From IMG/VR virus record IMGVR_UViG_3300027659_000066, positions 1-44,375 of that record: 44,375 bases of DNA; one strand, given 5' to 3'. Under the pieces are notes generated by a model. It did no database searches. It was not told the origin of the DNA and worked only from the letters and a program-made list of their open reading frames with translations. The stretch comes from a virus. Shown here in pieces: positions 4,208 to 44,375 of the stretch. Position 1 is the stretch's first letter. Each line of letters opens with the position of its first letter. Both the position numbers and the translations under genes were made by a program.

Positions 4208-4414
4208 TCATTTGGGGTTGTAGCACCCACACCTATATTCAAGGTCAACCAGCCTCATACGAGGGTGAGGATCGAGTTGAACAAAAGGAGGGAACTTGAA
4301 TGTGCAGTATATCTGACCGTTCCAAGGCTCTGAGGATTTGCACGATCCACACCTTGGGATGTTGAGAGGAAGTTTATCCTCTTCAACCGTTTCGGTCTTA
4401 GTCTTCTTAGGCAT
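4208..4414 (-). CDS. Small Cys-rich (zinc-ribbon-like) protein, 68 aa
   Basis: Contains RCGSC (C22, C25), a lone C37 and CGC (C62, C64) around a hydrophobic middle, a spacing that could hold one zinc ion. The N-terminus is lysine-rich. It overlaps the stop of the HTH gene (ATG within the last codons) and precedes the polymerase by six bases, so it is probably translated by coupling. Function unknown; a polymerase or host-protein modulator is only a guess. Confidence 0.7.
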   Translation of the reverse strand: MPKKTKTETVEEDKLPLNIPRCGSCKSSEPWNGQIYCTFKFPPFVQLDPHPRMRLVDLEYRCGCYNPK

Positions 4415-4784
4415 TCAACATGTAGCGAGTGTATGCGTTGCCAGTTATAGGATGCTTCTTTCGTAGAGACATGATGTCCATACGGTGTTCGATACGCAGT
4501 AGTGAGATGTACTTGCTCAAAGCGCCACCGCTCATCTGGTAGTCATTCATCGCTTCAAGGTGAGAGATCGAGCCAGTCTTCTTGAGATGCTTTACGAGTT
4601 TCTGAATCTTGGTCATACCGTTTGCCTTTTTCCAGCCGCTGTTTTCAGTTGATACACACATGGTAAGGAGCTTGATGTGGTATGGTCCCCACCCCTCTTC
4701 TTCCCACGCTCTAACACAAGCCTTATCTGACATGTGGAATAGAAGGTCTTCACCGTTAGAAGGGTGCATCCTGTAATTCCTCAT
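4407..4784 (-). CDS. Helix-turn-helix domain protein, 125 aa
   Basis: Residues about 57-125 (TKIQKLVKHLKKTGSISHLEAM, then LSKYISLLRIEHRMDI and HPITGNAYTRYML) fit the winged-helix HTH_39 type domain found in many phages between replication genes. The N-terminal 55 residues are of unknown type. ATG at 4784 overlaps the helicase end; an ATG at 4769 has a better Shine-Dalgarno (GAGGAA) and may be the true start. It could bind DNA as a local regulator or replication accessory. Confidence 0.75.
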   Translation of the reverse strand: MRNYRMHPSNGEDLLFHMSDKACVRAWEEEGWGPYHIKLLTMCVSTENSGWKKANGMTKIQKLVKHLKKTGSISHLEAMNDYQMSGGALSKYISLLRIEHRMDIMSLRKKHPITGNAYTRYMLNA

Positions 4785-7925: not shown

Positions 7926-7990
7926 GACGTAGGGTTCCTTCGCATGCTGCTAGAGGACGTGATAAGTTGTGGTTCCATATGTGTAACGAT

Positions 7991-10432
7991 CTAAGAAACA
8001 AAGAACTCGGACGTTAGGACTCCATTAAGGTCCAGATCACCTGGTGTTGGTAAGGGTTCAAGCTTCTCTTGGACTTCAGGTGGGAGCTTGTCTCTGAACT
8101 GTTCAAGCAGGGGTTGCTGATACATCTCAACGAATGCTTCTTTCACCAGCTTTACAAAGACTGGCATGTCAGCTGCGTGTACCCCAAAGCTATCGTGAAC
8201 CATTGCAAACGATGGGTTATCAATGGCTTCAATACCTTTCAGGATTGATGCTCTCATGAGGTTTGCGTCGTAGGAGTGGATCAGGTTCGGCGCCACAGCG
8301 AGTGACAACCCTCCTACATCCATCTTGTTAGTTGCTTCCATATATGTAAGCGATACTCGTCCATCTAGATATGTATCGGCCTGACGCTTCTTCTCATCAG
8401 GACGGTAGTGGATGGCTTCGAAACCATCTGGTGTGGTCCATGTCATACGCTTATCGAAGGCAGTCCCCTCCCCTACCTTGTTAACGTGTTTGGCATACTC
8501 CCTAGCCGCTGATGACAACCAGCGCATGGCCTCCTTACCTTTGACAACCACCTGATCGATGGCCTGCCAGATCAATTGAGAGAGGTAGAGGATACGATCC
8601 TGCGGGTTTTCATCACCCCAAGGACACGGATAACCATCGTCAAGCTTATCCTGCACAGCCTCACGGGTGTAAGCTAGACAAGAAGAGAAGGTGCCTGCAT
8701 ACGGGACAACCATGACCTGACGCTTGGTTGTCTTTCGGTCTATTCCAAAGGCTAGCCAATCCTTGTCAAAAGGGTTCTCACCTTTCATCAGGACTTCAAT
8801 CACCCTGTCAGCCACGTCTTGATACACGTCTTGACGAGGTAGACCGGGGACTAGGTTGACGGATCGTCCCCCTACCGAATCAAGCAGGAGGGCTGAATAG
8901 TGCTGGAGACCAGAGCATGTTGCATCCACACATGTAACTATATGGGAAATAAAACCATAGCCCCTGTCCTTGAAGGCTGACCACTCTAAGCAGAAGCGTA
9001 GGGCTTGGAATGGTTCACTAACATTCATCCATCTGTGGTCCCCCTTTGGGTTAGCTCCTATATCAAGAATCATCTCCTCGTTAGCCTTGACCCAAGCCAC
9101 TCTGTCTTTGAGAGATATCTTATCTTGACCAAAAGCATTAGCTCCTGAGATCGCCAGCCAATCAGCTTGCTCTTGAGTAGTGATGGGCTTGCCGTGAGCA
9201 AACTCTAAGAGAGCCTTGCAATAGTCTGGACCTTGTGTGTTGAGGAAGGCTGGCAAAGGGTAAGCCCTGCCCCTAGAGTCAAGGTTGTGTGGAAAGAACA
9301 TCTCCTTAAAGTTCTTGAACCTCTTCGCTACGCCTATGGTAGCTAGCACCATCAGACGCTTACTCTTAATCTCCCGATTGAAGCTGTGAATTAGAAAGCA
9401 CACCTTGTTGTGAGCCTTCTTGACCTCTTCATCAGTGCGGTAGCCAGGTGGTTCATCTGGCAATTGCTTACCATCAGCCAGAGGTAGACCAGCGATCCCA
9501 CCACCCTTGACAAACATAGACCAGCTTAAGATTTCAAGCATGTCTTTGTTGACCCTCCAAGGCACCTCCTGCAAGGCGTTGAGTGGAGGGATTACCTTGA
9601 CCCAGTCCATTGCAGCAAACCTGTCTACGTCCCTCCTACGTGACCCCTTGATGATTGGGTAATGACGGGTCTTCTTTGTTGATAGGTAGCCTCCTCTGAA
9701 CAGGTGAGATGTAGACCAAGGCAGGGGCTTAACAACCATTGGCTGGTAGATCATGAAGTCCAAAACACGGGTTGTCATGGCCTCCTCAATTGCTTTCACA
9801 AGTGTAACTACTGGTTCTACAAAGATGGACTTAGGGCCAGCTTCGATGAGACCAGTGTGATCTCTGAAGAGGAGGAGGAGAGCATAGCCAACGTGGAGTT
9901 TATCGTGGGTTGACCATTGTTCCCAGCTGATCTGTTCAGCGTGGAAGGCATTCTGGATGGTACGCTTGCGCCAGTCCCTTGGGTACGTCCTCTTGTCAAA
10001 GTCCTTGAACAGCTTCTTAAGCAGAGCCTTGCGATTCTTCTGTTCAGCAAAGTGTCTGATTCGCCACTCGTCGTGTATCAGGTCAGCAGCTTTGATACAC
10101 AGGCTGACACGCTTGACCCTACGACGGTGCGTCAAGGGGATCATGTTGTAGAGAGCCTTGGTAAACAGGTGGCTGATGACATCAGGTTCCAAGCCGGTCA
10201 GACGGAGCTTCTCAAACGCTCGTTTACCTCGTCCACCACCACCACCGACTTTACCTAACTCAGAGTGAACCGCCTCTGAGAACCGTTTAGCAGCCTGTCT
10301 GTGGAAGCTAATACCCAGTTTAGACTCAGACCAAGCCTGACGTTTATTCGATTGGTAATTGTCCCTAGTGACACGATTACCAGCTTCCTTAAGAGTTTCA
10401 GACTCAAGGTTGACCTGATGCTCAAGCGGCAT
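7991..10432 (-). CDS. T7-type single-subunit RNA polymerase
   Basis: An 813-residue DNA-directed RNA polymerase that would transcribe the middle and late genes from phage promoters. Motif A is CVDATCSGLQHYSALL with catalytic D503, motif B is KRQVMVVPYAGT with K570 and Y578 (T7 K631 and Y639), and motif C is HDSFG with D747. The segment about 652-690 is where the promoter-specificity loop should lie. A run of five glycines occurs at 63-67 before a basic patch. ATG at 10432 follows AAAAGGA. The 416-base segment upstream carries a repeat array and a likely host promoter. Confidence 0.97.
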   Translation of the reverse strand: MPLEHQVNLESETLKEAGNRVTRDNYQSNKRQAWSESKLGISFHRQAAKRFSEAVHSELGKVGGGGGRGKRAFEKLRLTGLEPDVISHLFTKALYNMIPLTHRRRVKRVSLCIKAADLIHDEWRIRHFAEQKNRKALLKKLFKDFDKRTYPRDWRKRTIQNAFHAEQISWEQWSTHDKLHVGYALLLLFRDHTGLIEAGPKSIFVEPVVTLVKAIEEAMTTRVLDFMIYQPMVVKPLPWSTSHLFRGGYLSTKKTRHYPIIKGSRRRDVDRFAAMDWVKVIPPLNALQEVPWRVNKDMLEILSWSMFVKGGGIAGLPLADGKQLPDEPPGYRTDEEVKKAHNKVCFLIHSFNREIKSKRLMVLATIGVAKRFKNFKEMFFPHNLDSRGRAYPLPAFLNTQGPDYCKALLEFAHGKPITTQEQADWLAISGANAFGQDKISLKDRVAWVKANEEMILDIGANPKGDHRWMNVSEPFQALRFCLEWSAFKDRGYGFISHIVTCVDATCSGLQHYSALLLDSVGGRSVNLVPGLPRQDVYQDVADRVIEVLMKGENPFDKDWLAFGIDRKTTKRQVMVVPYAGTFSSCLAYTREAVQDKLDDGYPCPWGDENPQDRILYLSQLIWQAIDQVVVKGKEAMRWLSSAAREYAKHVNKVGEGTAFDKRMTWTTPDGFEAIHYRPDEKKRQADTYLDGRVSLTYMEATNKMDVGGLSLAVAPNLIHSYDANLMRASILKGIEAIDNPSFAMVHDSFGVHAADMPVFVKLVKEAFVEMYQQPLLEQFRDKLPPEVQEKLEPLPTPGDLDLNGVLTSEFFVS

Positions 10433-10503
10433 GTGAGATATCCTTTTATGTTAGGATGATACAGTAGTTATACGGTAGTACTTTTAGCACTAAACAGGCT
10501 AGG

Positions 10504-10680
10504 GTACTGTTACCAATACTGTTAAGGTACTGTTTACCTAGTGTATAAACAAGACTGACAACAATTCTAAAGTATTAGTACTACTATGTACTGTTAGAGT
10601 ACTGTTAATCTATAGATTAGAATCTACTAGTACCTACTTGTAGTCATACTCTATATTAATGTACTCTTAATGTACTGTTA
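10504..10680. repeat. Seven TACTGTTA-type sites in helically phased groups
   Basis: Sites start at 10505, 10517, 10528 (TACTGTTTA), 10589, 10600, 10662 (TACTCTTA) and 10673. Within groups neighbours are 11-12 bases apart, one helical turn. The groups recur at 72-73 bases (10517/10528, 10589/10600, 10662/10673), close to seven turns. On the minus strand the unit reads TTAACAGTAC. A protein bound to them would sit on one face of the DNA. Confidence 0.8.
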
Positions 10681-10681
10681 A
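10653..10681 (-). promoter_or_regulatory. Candidate host sigma70 promoter for the RNA polymerase gene
   Basis: Minus strand TTAACA, a 17-base spacer and TAATAT give five and four matches to the -35 and -10 consensus. The -35 lies inside the first TACTGTTA repeat and the spacer covers the second, so a repeat-binding protein would block it. It would give a leader of about 210 bases. Confidence 0.4.
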
Positions 10682-10683
10682 CA

Positions 10684-10741
10684 TATGTATACATATATCT
10701 TACTAGTACTAGTACCAGTATTATGTATACACTATGTATAC
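10684..10741. repeat. Three TATGTATAC direct repeats
   Basis: Copies at 10684-10692, 10722-10730 and 10733-10741; the last two are 11 bases apart, like the neighbouring TACTGTTA pairs. Each contains the palindrome GTATAC. Confidence 0.55.
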
Positions 10742-10784
10742 AGTACATTAACCTATGCTAAGATAGAGATAGACCCCTCCCCCT

Positions 10785-10848: not shown

Positions 10849-11088
10849 CTACTTGATATATAACAGCTTTTCAGTATACCAAAGCTCGTCTAACAGGTCG
10901 TCTACATCGATGAAGAGACTGATGTCATAAAGGGTTCGAGTACCTTTAACCTTCTTAAGCTTGTCATCAATGAGGGTGAATACGAGGGTGTATCCGCTTC
11001 CTCCCGCAGTAGATCTACGTAAGCTGATCAATTCAAAGGCTTGAACAGCGATTACGGCTGATAACAATGCAGTGAAGGTGTGTTGCAT
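10849..11088 (-). CDS. Hypothetical protein, 79 aa, between attP and the polymerase gene
   Basis: Family not recognised. The N-terminal stretch MQHTFTALLSAVIAVQAFELI is hydrophobic and could be a weak signal or membrane segment; the rest is charged (IDDKLKKVKGTRTLYDISLFIDVDDLLDELW). ATG at 11088 follows GGGGAAG. Its place next to attP suggests an excisionase or lysogeny function, but no HTH or Xis-type motif is visible. Confidence 0.65.
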   Translation of the reverse strand: MQHTFTALLSAVIAVQAFELISLRRSTAGGSGYTLVFTLIDDKLKKVKGTRTLYDISLFIDVDDLLDELWYTEKLLYIK

Positions 11089-11396: not shown

Positions 11397-11428
11397 TTGT
11401 GCCATCGATGGCACAAGATTTGGCACAA
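11397..11428. repeat. TTGTGCCA sites: 20-base palindrome plus a third half-site
   Basis: TTGTGCCATCGATGGCACAA at 11397-11416 is a perfect palindrome, and a further TGGCACAA lies at 11421-11428. Read on the minus strand the last two make TTGTGCCA-N4-TTGTGCCA. The array abuts the integrase stop (11432) and is about 140 bases from the putative core, fitting arm-type integrase sites. The same N4-spaced pair recurs at 15105-15124. Confidence 0.6.
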
Positions 11429-11431
11429 GAG

Positions 11432-12409
11432 TTATGCAGCGTCAACACCTAAATGATAGGTTTGTTGCTCTAATATGCGAGCAGCCGACTGAAGATGGTG
11501 AGGAGAAAGCTTGGCATAGCGTAGGGTCGTCTTGTAGTCCTTGTGACCCAGCCAGACCATCACTCGCTTGAGGTCAACGCCACGCTGGACCAGACGGCTA
11601 GCACAGGTGTGACGCAGGACGTGCGGTGTCATCAACACGTCATCAGCAAAGCCCGCAGCATCCCTAGCCTTCACCCACCGCTTCCTGAACTTGGTGTAGG
11701 TCATGCAGGAGAAGGGTCCAGCTTGGTTGTGGCGGGTGAGCTTGGCCCACTCAATCACCGAGGCGGTTTGCTCAGTGAATGGGACGGCTCTGGACTCCCC
11801 ATTCTTCGTGTCCATGAACGCAATATAGGACTCGTTGATGTCCACCCACTTCAGCTTTGTGGCCTCAGAGTATCGACATCCGGTGTAAAGGAGAAACTTA
11901 CAGAAGTGTAAGTACTCGTCCTCAAAACAGGCTAGCAATGCTACTTCCTCGGTCTCCGTCAGGTAACGTAAATGTCCAGCCCTTTGAGGGTATAGCTCAA
12001 TCGGAGGCATAGCAGTTATAAGCTTACGTTTAAGCGCCCGTCTTAACATCTTTGAGAGGCGGGTTAGCTTGTTGTTGATGGTCTGGGGAGCCAAGCCCTC
12101 CTCCTCCATAGTGTCCTTCAGTTCTTCGATCAGCATCTCGTCGATTTGGAACATGTAGGTCTTAGGACCAATCCTCCTGACCAAGTCCTTAGTGATCGAC
12201 TTGGCGTCTCTATATGACTTCTCCTTTGCCCATATCTTCTCACAATAGTCAGGCAGGATTACACCAACGCTCGCCTCTCCTAACGCCAAGACATGCGCCG
12301 CGTTAGCCTCAAAGGCCACAGCCTCCTGCTCAGTATCAAACGCTGGTCTGACACGTTGCCCACCAACAATGCAGTCTGATTGCCACCTATTGCCACGCTT
12401 TCTAGCCAT
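11432..12409 (-). CDS. int: Tyrosine recombinase (phage integrase)
   Basis: A 325-residue integrase with the complete catalytic set: R179 in TGCRYSEA, K202 in TKNGESR, H263 and R266 in PHVLRHT, H289 in WLGHKD and nucleophile Y298 in TLRYAK. The N-terminus has an arm-binding-like basic start (MARKRGNRWQ) and a core-binding domain at about 50-135. It is preceded by the MarR-like gene, whose last codons contain AGGAGC as its ribosome site, so the two form an operon. It would recombine attP with a host tRNA gene, making this T7-like phage a potential temperate phage. Confidence 0.96.
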   Translation of the reverse strand: MARKRGNRWQSDCIVGGQRVRPAFDTEQEAVAFEANAAHVLALGEASVGVILPDYCEKIWAKEKSYRDAKSITKDLVRRIGPKTYMFQIDEMLIEELKDTMEEEGLAPQTINNKLTRLSKMLRRALKRKLITAMPPIELYPQRAGHLRYLTETEEVALLACFEDEYLHFCKFLLYTGCRYSEATKLKWVDINESYIAFMDTKNGESRAVPFTEQTASVIEWAKLTRHNQAGPFSCMTYTKFRKRWVKARDAAGFADDVLMTPHVLRHTCASRLVQRGVDLKRVMVWLGHKDYKTTLRYAKLSPHHLQSAARILEQQTYHLGVDAA

Positions 12410-12411
12410 GA

Positions 12412-12744
12412 TTAAGCTCCTGCTGACTTGCGTAAACGATCCATGAAATCCCGGCCAGTCTTGGTCAGGGTCAAGATACGAAAGCGCCTATCGTTAGGGT
12501 CTTCGACACGCGCTATGAAGTTCATGCCGGGCTTGTGGTCAAAGCGGATGTTTGTCCAAAAGCTCACATTCCTTGACGCAGAGGCATTCGTTAATTCTAA
12601 CGCCTCTTCAATCTGTTTTTGATTACACGACCCTACATGCGCCACAAAAAGGAATGTGCGGATGGTCTGGAGCGGAACTTCCCTGCCAACTTCATCGCAG
12701 ATAAACGACAGCTGGGCTTCAAGGGTGAGTGTGGATTTGCTCAT
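12412..12744 (-). CDS. MarR-like winged-helix transcriptional regulator
   Basis: A 110-residue single-domain wHTH protein. The recognition helix region is QKQIEEALELTNASASRNVSFW (about 42-63), and the wing DPNDRRFRILTLTKTGRDFMDRL (about 82-104) has the DxxDRR and LTxxG pattern typical of MarR proteins. It lacks the long dimerisation helices of full-size MarR, so it is shorter than usual. It lies upstream of int, with an inverted repeat over its probable promoter, suggesting autoregulation and control of integration. The ribosome site before ATG 12744 is weak. Confidence 0.85.
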   Translation of the reverse strand: MSKSTLTLEAQLSFICDEVGREVPLQTIRTFLFVAHVGSCNQKQIEEALELTNASASRNVSFWTNIRFDHKPGMNFIARVEDPNDRRFRILTLTKTGRDFMDRLRKSAGA

Positions 12745-12947: not shown

Positions 12948-13041
12948 AGCTATGAGCTTTAACTGAGCTATAGGCTTGATCTGAGCCATAGGCTTTGACT
13001 TGACCATGAAGCTTGAACATGACCATAAGGCTTTACCTTTG
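12948..13041. repeat. Degenerate tandem repeat, five units of 18-20 bases
   Basis: Units start at 12948, 12966, 12984, 13003 and 13022, with consensus near AGCYATAGGCTTTGACTTG; a partial sixth unit follows. Unit length drifts from 18 to 20 bases, so it is unlikely to be coding. Units are diverged, which suggests binding sites or an old duplication. Confidence 0.65.
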
Positions 13042-15124: not shown

Positions 15125-15210
15125 TTCAATAGTCAAGACCGTGTTATCCACGGCTAAGATCAAGGCGGTATCTAGGCCTAGGCTATGGGGGGAAGGCCGG
15201 AGCGGCGCGT

Positions 15211-15253
15211 TAAAAGAAGGGTTGACGGATTTTTGCTAAGAATCTATCAACCC
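15211..15253 (-). terminator. Rho-independent terminator after phoH
   Basis: Arms GGGTTGA (15219-15225) and TCAACCC (15247-15253), an inner GATT/AATC pair and a nine-base loop form a long stem. On the minus strand it is followed by TTCTTTTA. It lies about 95 bases beyond the phoH stop and would end late transcription before the early region. Confidence 0.65.
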
Positions 15254-15346
15254 CCCTATCAGCCTCCTAAACACCCATGCTAACCTTTAGGCTGCCCACA
15301 TAGCCCCTAATATCAACAAACCGCTGTACGGGGCTGCTAGAGGCCT

Positions 15347-43554: not shown

Positions 43555-43846
43555 CTTCTTGCTCCTTGATCAATTGGTCCAAGTACCAGCGAGCCTTCTT
43601 TAGGTCTTTAAGAGCCGATCCTTTGTAGGGAGATCGAGTGACATACTTGATCACGTTACCCTCAGCGAACCCTAGCTCCCATGCTGTGATGAAGTCATAG
43701 ACCTCGATCTTTCCTATAGTGTAGTGAGCGGGGTGTGAGATTTCGTCAGTTTCCATGAAGTCAAAACTCATCTGTTGGGGCTGTGGGCAGATGTCACACT
43801 GCCCTCTGCACTGACCAGCTTCCTTTACGCAGTAGTAGGTTCCCAA
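43541..43846 (-). CDS. DUF3310 protein with Cys-rich N-terminal extension
   Basis: A 101-residue protein. Residues 35-98 (DEISHPAHYTIGKIEVYDFI, NVIKYVTRSPYKG, KARWYLDQLI) match DUF3310, a phage family sometimes called nucleotide kinase-like on weak grounds. The N-terminus CVKEAGQCRGQCDICPQ has four cysteines that could bind zinc. The start is TTG at 43846 with AAGGTAATAC upstream, inside the exonuclease end. The left-edge copy differs in the Cys-rich part. Confidence 0.88.
   Translation of the reverse strand: MGTYYCVKEAGQCRGQCDICPQPQQMSFDFMETDEISHPAHYTIGKIEVYDFITAWELGFAEGNVIKYVTRSPYKGSALKDLKKARWYLDQLIKEQEDEQL
43706..43726 (-). promoter_or_regulatory. Weak candidate phage promoter inside the DUF3310 gene
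   Basis: Minus strand TACACTATAGGAAAG contains CACTATAGG, identical to the T7 promoter core, and shares CAC(A/T)ATAGGA with the site at 38059-38083. It is inside coding sequence upstream of mazG and RNR, so chance is a serious alternative. Confidence 0.2.
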
Positions 43847-44375
43847 AGTATTACCTTTTGTGTTTTAGCATCCCAGTCAGTTGATCTTAGGATGCGAGCT
43901 AGCCTTGCTTGAACAAGTGCTTCTTCATCTGTTAATCCAGCTTTCTTGTAGGCTGCTAGAACGAATGACCATTCCATGCCAGAACCTAAAGCTAGCTTGA
44001 TGATACCGTCAGCTTTGACTGGCCCAATACCGGGACAGCCTTTGTAGTTGTCGGTCGTATCGCCTGTGAGGATTTGTTTGTAGAAGAAAGCATCAGCCTC
44101 TTCTTGAGACACCGTGCTTACACCCTCTTCAGTGAGGTGCTTACCGGGTATCTGCTTGAGGTCTTTATCGATTGACCAGATAACATAGTCTGGATCACTC
44201 GTAGCTAAGATACCGAGTACGTCGTCAGCTTCTAATTTTGGATAGATGACAACCTTTTCACAATTCTCAAAGATCACACGCTCACGTATAGATTTGAAGC
44301 CCATAGGCTTGCGTGTGGTTCTGTTCCCCTTGTAGTCAGGGTACAAGTCTTTGCGGAAGTTCTTAGCGTGTGAAA
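43716..44375. repeat. Terminal overlap, copy 2 (about 93% identical to 1-660)
   Basis: See the left-edge copy. The final mismatch is at 44248 (533 in copy 1), leaving exactly 127 identical bases to the window end, the length of a common maximum assembly k-mer. Confidence 0.9.
43825..44375 (-). CDS. 5'-3' exonuclease, C-terminal part cut by the window edge (copy 2)
   Basis: The reading frame is open to the right edge and covers residues 63-245 of the exonuclease described at 110-847. All metal-binding motifs from KLEADDVLG onward and the helix-hairpin-helix are intact. Differences from copy 1 include EEGVSTVS for EEGVIKVS, VKADG for VKAEG and LALGSGMEW for LASGTGKEW, outside the catalytic residues. 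It is the same gene from another strain variant, or less likely a true paralogue. Confidence 0.9.
   Translation of the reverse strand, partial: SHAKNFRKDLYPDYKGNRTTRKPMGFKSIRERVIFENCEKVVIYPKLEADDVLGILATSDPDYVIWSIDKDLKQIPGKHLTEEGVSTVSQEEADAFFYKQILTGDTTDNYKGCPGIGPVKADGIIKLALGSGMEWSFVLAAYKKAGLTDEEALVQARLARILRSTDWDAKTQKVILWEPTTA

Follow-up and report, generated by a model that had tools for sequence, protein, structure and literature searches.

The locus described here offers a DNA element through which it may be asked how a T7-like phage with a self-driving RNA polymerase stays silent in a lysogen. The window, that is, the whole stretch of 44,375 nucleotides analysed (record IMGVR_UViG_3300027659_000066, an IMG/VR virus, 44.4 kb), is, as read from its sequence, a temperate T7-like phage with a MarR-like gene, an integrase, a tRNA-Trp attachment site, and an RNA polymerase. 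The genes around the polymerase run leftward, in the order MarR-like regulator, integrase, 5' half of tRNA-Trp, gene for a 79-aa protein, repeat array, and polymerase gene (Table 1). The best isolated relatives by RNA polymerase are Roseobacter phages (about 37% identity), and the nearer relatives (69–71% identity) are uncultivated. Positions 1–660 and 43716–44375 form a direct repeat of 660 bases with 93% identity between the record ends; the record is therefore probably a circularly permuted sequence that was closed across strain variation.

Table 1. Features of the window around the polymerase gene and genes of candidate binding proteins
Feature	Position	Strand	Remark
Winged-HTH (HTH_39) gene	4407..4784	-	Adjoins primase gene; second candidate binder
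phi2, second predicted phage promoter copy	7946..7967	-	Just after polymerase gene; match to phi1
T7-like single-subunit RNA polymerase gene	7991..10432	-	813 aa
Phased repeat array	about 10500..10755	-	Polymerase gene leader; minus strand is the useful orientation
Group 1, three TACTGTTA-like sites	10505..10535	+	10505, 10517, 10528 (TACTGTTT)
Group 2, two TACTGTTA sites	10589..10607	+	10589, 10600
Group 3, TACTCTTA and TACTGTTA	10662..10682	+	10662 (TACTCTTA), 10673 (TACTGTTA)
TATGTATAC copy	10684..10692	-	GTATAC core at 10687
Spacer with dyad symmetry (TACTAGTACTAGTA)	10693..10721	.	
Two TATGTATAC copies, 11 bases apart	10722..10741	-	GTATAC cores at 10725, 10736
phi1, predicted T7-family-like phage promoter	10789..10810	-	Upstream of array; 20/24 match to phi2
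Conserved 79-aa protein gene	10849..11088	-	Predicted helix-strands-helix fold
Likely attachment site, tRNA-Trp gene 5' half up to anticodon loop	11220..11261	-	90.5% match to tRNA-Trp genes of Caulobacter phages
TTGTGCCA repeats (two direct, one inverted)	11397..11428	-	Integrase gene end
Tyrosine integrase gene	11432..12409	-	
MarR-like regulator gene	12412..12744	-	Candidate array binder

The seven TACTGTTA-like sites reported in the first-pass annotation (coding-strand form, TAACAGTA) were all present; five are exact and two carry one mismatch. Within groups the sites are spaced by 12 and 11 bases (group 1) or 11 bases (groups 2 and 3), and the groups recur at distances of 72, 72 and 73, 73 bases. 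In group 3, the TACTGTTA site at 10673 overlaps a full GTTAAC core at 10677. For the second repeat, TATGTATAC, the annotation had noted a pair with 11-base spacing but had missed one of the three copies, which start at 10684, 10722, and 10733. Measured between starts, the core of the copy at 10684 is 38 bases away from the following one; this gap also occurs in the related phages L007 and L008. The spacer separates two unit clusters that are mutually inverted. The array region is the stretch of lowest G+C content in the window (31% vs 47%), but AT-richness does not explain the array, because its repeats far exceed those in 1,000 dinucleotide-preserving shuffles of the 310-base region: exact TACTGTTA occurred five times, against a mean of 0.15 and a maximum of 2 in the shuffles, and 16 pairs of identical 6-mers lay 11 bases apart, against 0.4 expected, a number reached by no shuffle. 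The octamer is thus not a by-product of base composition. In the whole window, one-mismatch matches to TACTGTTA were not enriched (47 vs 39 expected), and the signal is therefore local. These results support the earlier proposal of a helically phased, nonrandom array at the polymerase gene of a temperate T7-like phage, and regularly spaced sites at such a gene are what would be expected of an operator.

Two further arrays were observed. An unrelated one of 18–19-base repeats (AAGCYYATAGCTCAG-like) lies at 12948–13034, upstream of the MarR-integrase genes. The other, a G-rich array (GGGGTTAGGGAGGGTTTGAG) with a 10-base period, occupies a gap before the early genes in L007 (1270–1409), possibly near the packaging end, and is present in the window only in a degenerate version near 15200–15340.

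The array had been placed over the polymerase promoter, with one of its sites supplying the −35 element of a good sigma70 candidate, but this assignment was not supported. The pair TTAACA-17-TAATAT is present (10681–10653, minus strand); sigma70-like matches in 2.6 kb, however, were not above chance (1 found vs 3.6 in shuffles), so that the pair is no evidence for a promoter. The best candidate is instead the phage-type phi1, found together with phi2 by comparing the stretches before and after the polymerase gene. Their 20 shared bases compare with a maximum of 17 in shuffled sequence and in other, unrelated segments of this genome, and the next best match to the element on the same strand of the window was 15/22. 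The same type of pairing was found in most relatives tested, was marginal in L014, and was not seen in L018/L019 in the same comparison. In several (L016, L022, L062, and L068), the element contains ACTATA or CACTATA, which form the core of promoters in the T7 family. Because the predicted phi1 lies upstream of the array, the array appears to lie in the polymerase mRNA leader rather than over the promoter: counted from the presumed transcript start, the first unit lies about 50 bases in, and the array stops short of the polymerase start codon. The spacer between the unit clusters yielded no promoter.

Phased arrays were found at the same place, in the polymerase gene leader, in ten related phages whose polymerases are about 53–71% identical to that of the window (L007, L008, L015, L016, L018/L019, L061, L062 [with the near-identical L063], L064, L067, and L068). 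Their usual common unit is ATGTWWACAT, repeated every 10–11 bases (pooled unit, TATGTWWACATA), and unit distances are mostly 10–11, 20–22, 38–39, or 51–52. Most of these leader arrays scored above all shuffles. L016 was weak in the first test and passed the consensus test only (4/300 shuffles as high); L067 failed the first test (50/200 shuffles as high) and passed the consensus test; and L018/L019 passed the first test, but with AGTTAAAC-like units instead of the palindromic core. Among GTWWAC cores, 53 of 61 were self-palindromic, compared with about two thirds expected from the leader dinucleotides, and the bases flanking the cores were complementary more often than in shuffles (p 0.004). 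TACTGTTA is the window phage's own variant of the common unit. On the palindromic consensus alone the window was not significant (28/300 shuffles as high), because TACTGTTA is a half unit plus a private extension, whereas its own 11-base repeats were. Helical phasing was thus conserved, but the 72–73-base period and the octamer highlighted in the first-pass annotation were not, since spacing and unit differ among the relatives; the period was accordingly dropped as a conserved property. Place, phase, and core are retained down to about 53% polymerase identity. In the polymerase tree, the window groups with L007 and L008 (support 100/99). The array occurs solely within a single clade of T7-like phages that carry an integrase, and the tree requires five changes of the array label, compared with a mean of 7.8 when labels were shuffled (23/500 as low). 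One early gain followed by losses is a plausible history. Read by eye, the leaders of the array-less L014 and L069 are very short, and that of L066 carries an apparent terminator-like hairpin at the position of the leader.

Gene order in L007 and L008 is as in the window, with another tRNA half at the junction between integrase and polymerase. Different halves occur there in the window, L007, L008, L009, L014, L016, L018, L022, and L062, some being 5' halves that read towards the polymerase and others reversed 3' halves; with the 5'-half type, the polymerase gene would come to lie downstream of a host tRNA promoter on integration. The 79-aa protein, which has an EDDLhxELW-like motif, is always encoded between the attachment site and the polymerase gene, and the family gave no match to a known fold or family and no convincing fold match. 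It was rejected as an array-specific partner, since it also occurs without the array (L066, L069, and possibly L065); it was not detected in the array-bearing L061 and L064.

What, then, could the array do? We consider it about an even call, on the sequence evidence, that it is a multi-site operator or roadblock in the leader of a self-amplifying polymerase gene. Several observations lead to this reading: the array sits downstream of the predicted phi1 and ahead of the start codon both in the window and in its relatives, ten other phages have phased arrays, most of them above all shuffles, and these arrays are restricted to a single integrase-carrying clade. A phage that combines an autocatalytic polymerase gene with an integrase and MarR would also need a brake. 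The units are mostly self-palindromic, which fits dimer binding on double-stranded DNA, and their symmetry favours protein dimers as the putative ligands. Neighbouring units would each be occupied by a dimer of a candidate DNA-binding protein, all on one face of the helix, the phage MarR-like repressor being the foremost candidate, followed by the HTH_39 protein or a host protein. The resulting nucleoprotein stretch may stand in the way of host read-through as well as of phage polymerase that has started at phi1. Self-amplification of the polymerase would thereby be interrupted and lysogeny permitted, and lytic growth would begin once the block is released. The fuller scheme, a cooperative palindromic-array roadblock set up for lysogeny and removed for lysis that may double as a replication origin, is put forward tentatively, with a probability well short of even. 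Of the earlier suggestion that a cooperatively bound, possibly looping protein could shut off the polymerase gene as a lysogeny switch, the array at the polymerase gene stands, and looping found no specific support. The array is a concrete, short, and conserved DNA target that comes with a candidate promoter and candidate binding proteins, and relatives lacking it offer natural controls, so that the question of polymerase silencing becomes testable with a reporter.

Several points count against the operator. The comparison of gene content yielded no array-specific phage protein, no convincing window gene being limited to genomes with the array, and the MarR-like and HTH_39 proteins are common to array-bearing and array-less phages. 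MarR proteins with a similar recognition helix are present in L014, L065, L066, and L069, which have no array; the co-occurrence of MarR and array is neutral as to whether MarR binds it. Furthermore, phi1 and the start site are predictions, similar arrays occur in replication genes of unrelated phages, and the AT-rich leader beside a phage promoter resembles the primary origin of T7. This last resemblance underlies the main rival, a replication origin at which transcription from phi1 would open AT-rich, iteron-like units where replication starts. The first-pass annotation had named an iteron-type origin as its alternative, and we retain it as serious although rather unlikely, ranked below the operator. 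Directly downstream of the predicted promoter comes the window's most AT-rich stretch, as in a T7-type origin; in most of these phages the replication module includes a winged-HTH protein; and phased GTATAC arrays that other phages carry within DnaD-like replication genes resemble initiator iterons. Against this, array-less relatives keep the same replication genes, and the searched records of these relatives contain no array of this type at other sites, no G+C skew switch was found at the array (weak evidence), and, to our knowledge, T7-type replication needs no iteron-binding initiator. If it is an origin, it would be an unusual iteron-like one at a T7-type promoter.

Transcribed palindromes could also form long hairpins that serve as RNase III sites or control translation of the polymerase. 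The leaders do fold better than shuffles, with z from −2.4 (window) to −8 (L007), but self-palindromic units fold by construction, the structures vary from phage to phage, with weak folding in L061 and L022, there was no Rfam match, and the conserved 10–11-base period with local palindromy fits double-stranded DNA better; a leader RNA element is accordingly improbable. We attach similarly little probability to a host protein, either a xenogeneic silencer or a response regulator, reading the AT-rich phased sites. The array is AT-rich and TpA-rich, and the window leader has two CtrA-like TTAA-N7-TTAA boxes; these boxes were absent from the ten other leaders tested, on which ground a CtrA-controlled promoter was rejected, and a sequence-specific palindromic core is retained. 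PhoB-like direct repeats, suggested by the CTGTTA spacing, were likewise dropped, since the cores in relatives are palindromic. Least probable are arm sites for integrase or excisionase, or repeats without function. Integrase and attachment site are near the array, but the attachment site is 480–760 bases away, and the other repeat, TTGTGCCA, which recurs at the integrase end in relatives, probably represents the integrase arm sites; a lack of function would also accord poorly with the retention of place, phase, and core.

A pattern scan of viral contigs gave at least well over a hundred loci; six loci of this polymerase clade were among the matches listed, the others being in different settings. 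Phased GTATAC/GTTAAC arrays were seen in L222 (11396–11490), L253 (10308–10380), L131 (3703–3800), L207 (8047–8082), and L258 (6884–6950), in settings that include the inside of DnaD-like replication genes, the vicinity of a terminase small-subunit gene, and positions beside small RHH-like genes. Because arrays recur in unrelated gene settings, the phased GTWWAC motif alone is not diagnostic of function.

Comparison with known systems shows likenesses and differences in each case. In the primary origin of T7, phage promoters are combined with an AT-rich stretch adjoining gene 1. The order of a phage promoter and then an AT-rich stretch beside the polymerase gene is the same here; in T7, however, the origin follows the polymerase gene and has no phased palindromic units, whereas the present array precedes the gene and has them. 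The iteron-like arrays of L222 and L253 share GTATAC-type cores every 11 bases but lie within the initiator coding sequence, not in a polymerase leader. In parC/ParR of plasmid R1, clusters of 11-base repeats surround a spacer of about 39 bases, and clustered 11-base repeats with 38–39 bases between cores are likewise found in the window, L007, and L008. The parC repeats, however, are direct, bound by an RHH protein, and flank a promoter, whereas the cores here are palindromic, a promoter was not detected in the spacer, and no RHH match was recognised among the window proteins scanned, a part of the full set. The closest comparison is with LUZ100, for which a phi1/MarR lysogeny model for temperate T7-like phages has been published (PMC10134795). 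An earlier hypothesis, as cited in that paper, also has MarR repressing the polymerase in such phages, and in the published models MarR is proposed to bind close to the promoter of the polymerase, at untested sites. The first-pass annotation had held that no T7-like operator of this form is described. This is borne out for the array, on which a search of the open literature returned nothing for T7-like phages, but not for the general idea of polymerase repression at the promoter, which is already published (PMC10134795); the array, its in-leader position, and its conservation were absent from the literature searched. As in the window, LUZ100 has its MarR-integrase genes upstream of the polymerase and a phage-specific promoter before and another after it, and polymerase repression in lysogeny is proposed in both cases. 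The LUZ100 leader has no phased array, and its proposed sites flank the promoter, whereas the array described here lies inside the leader.
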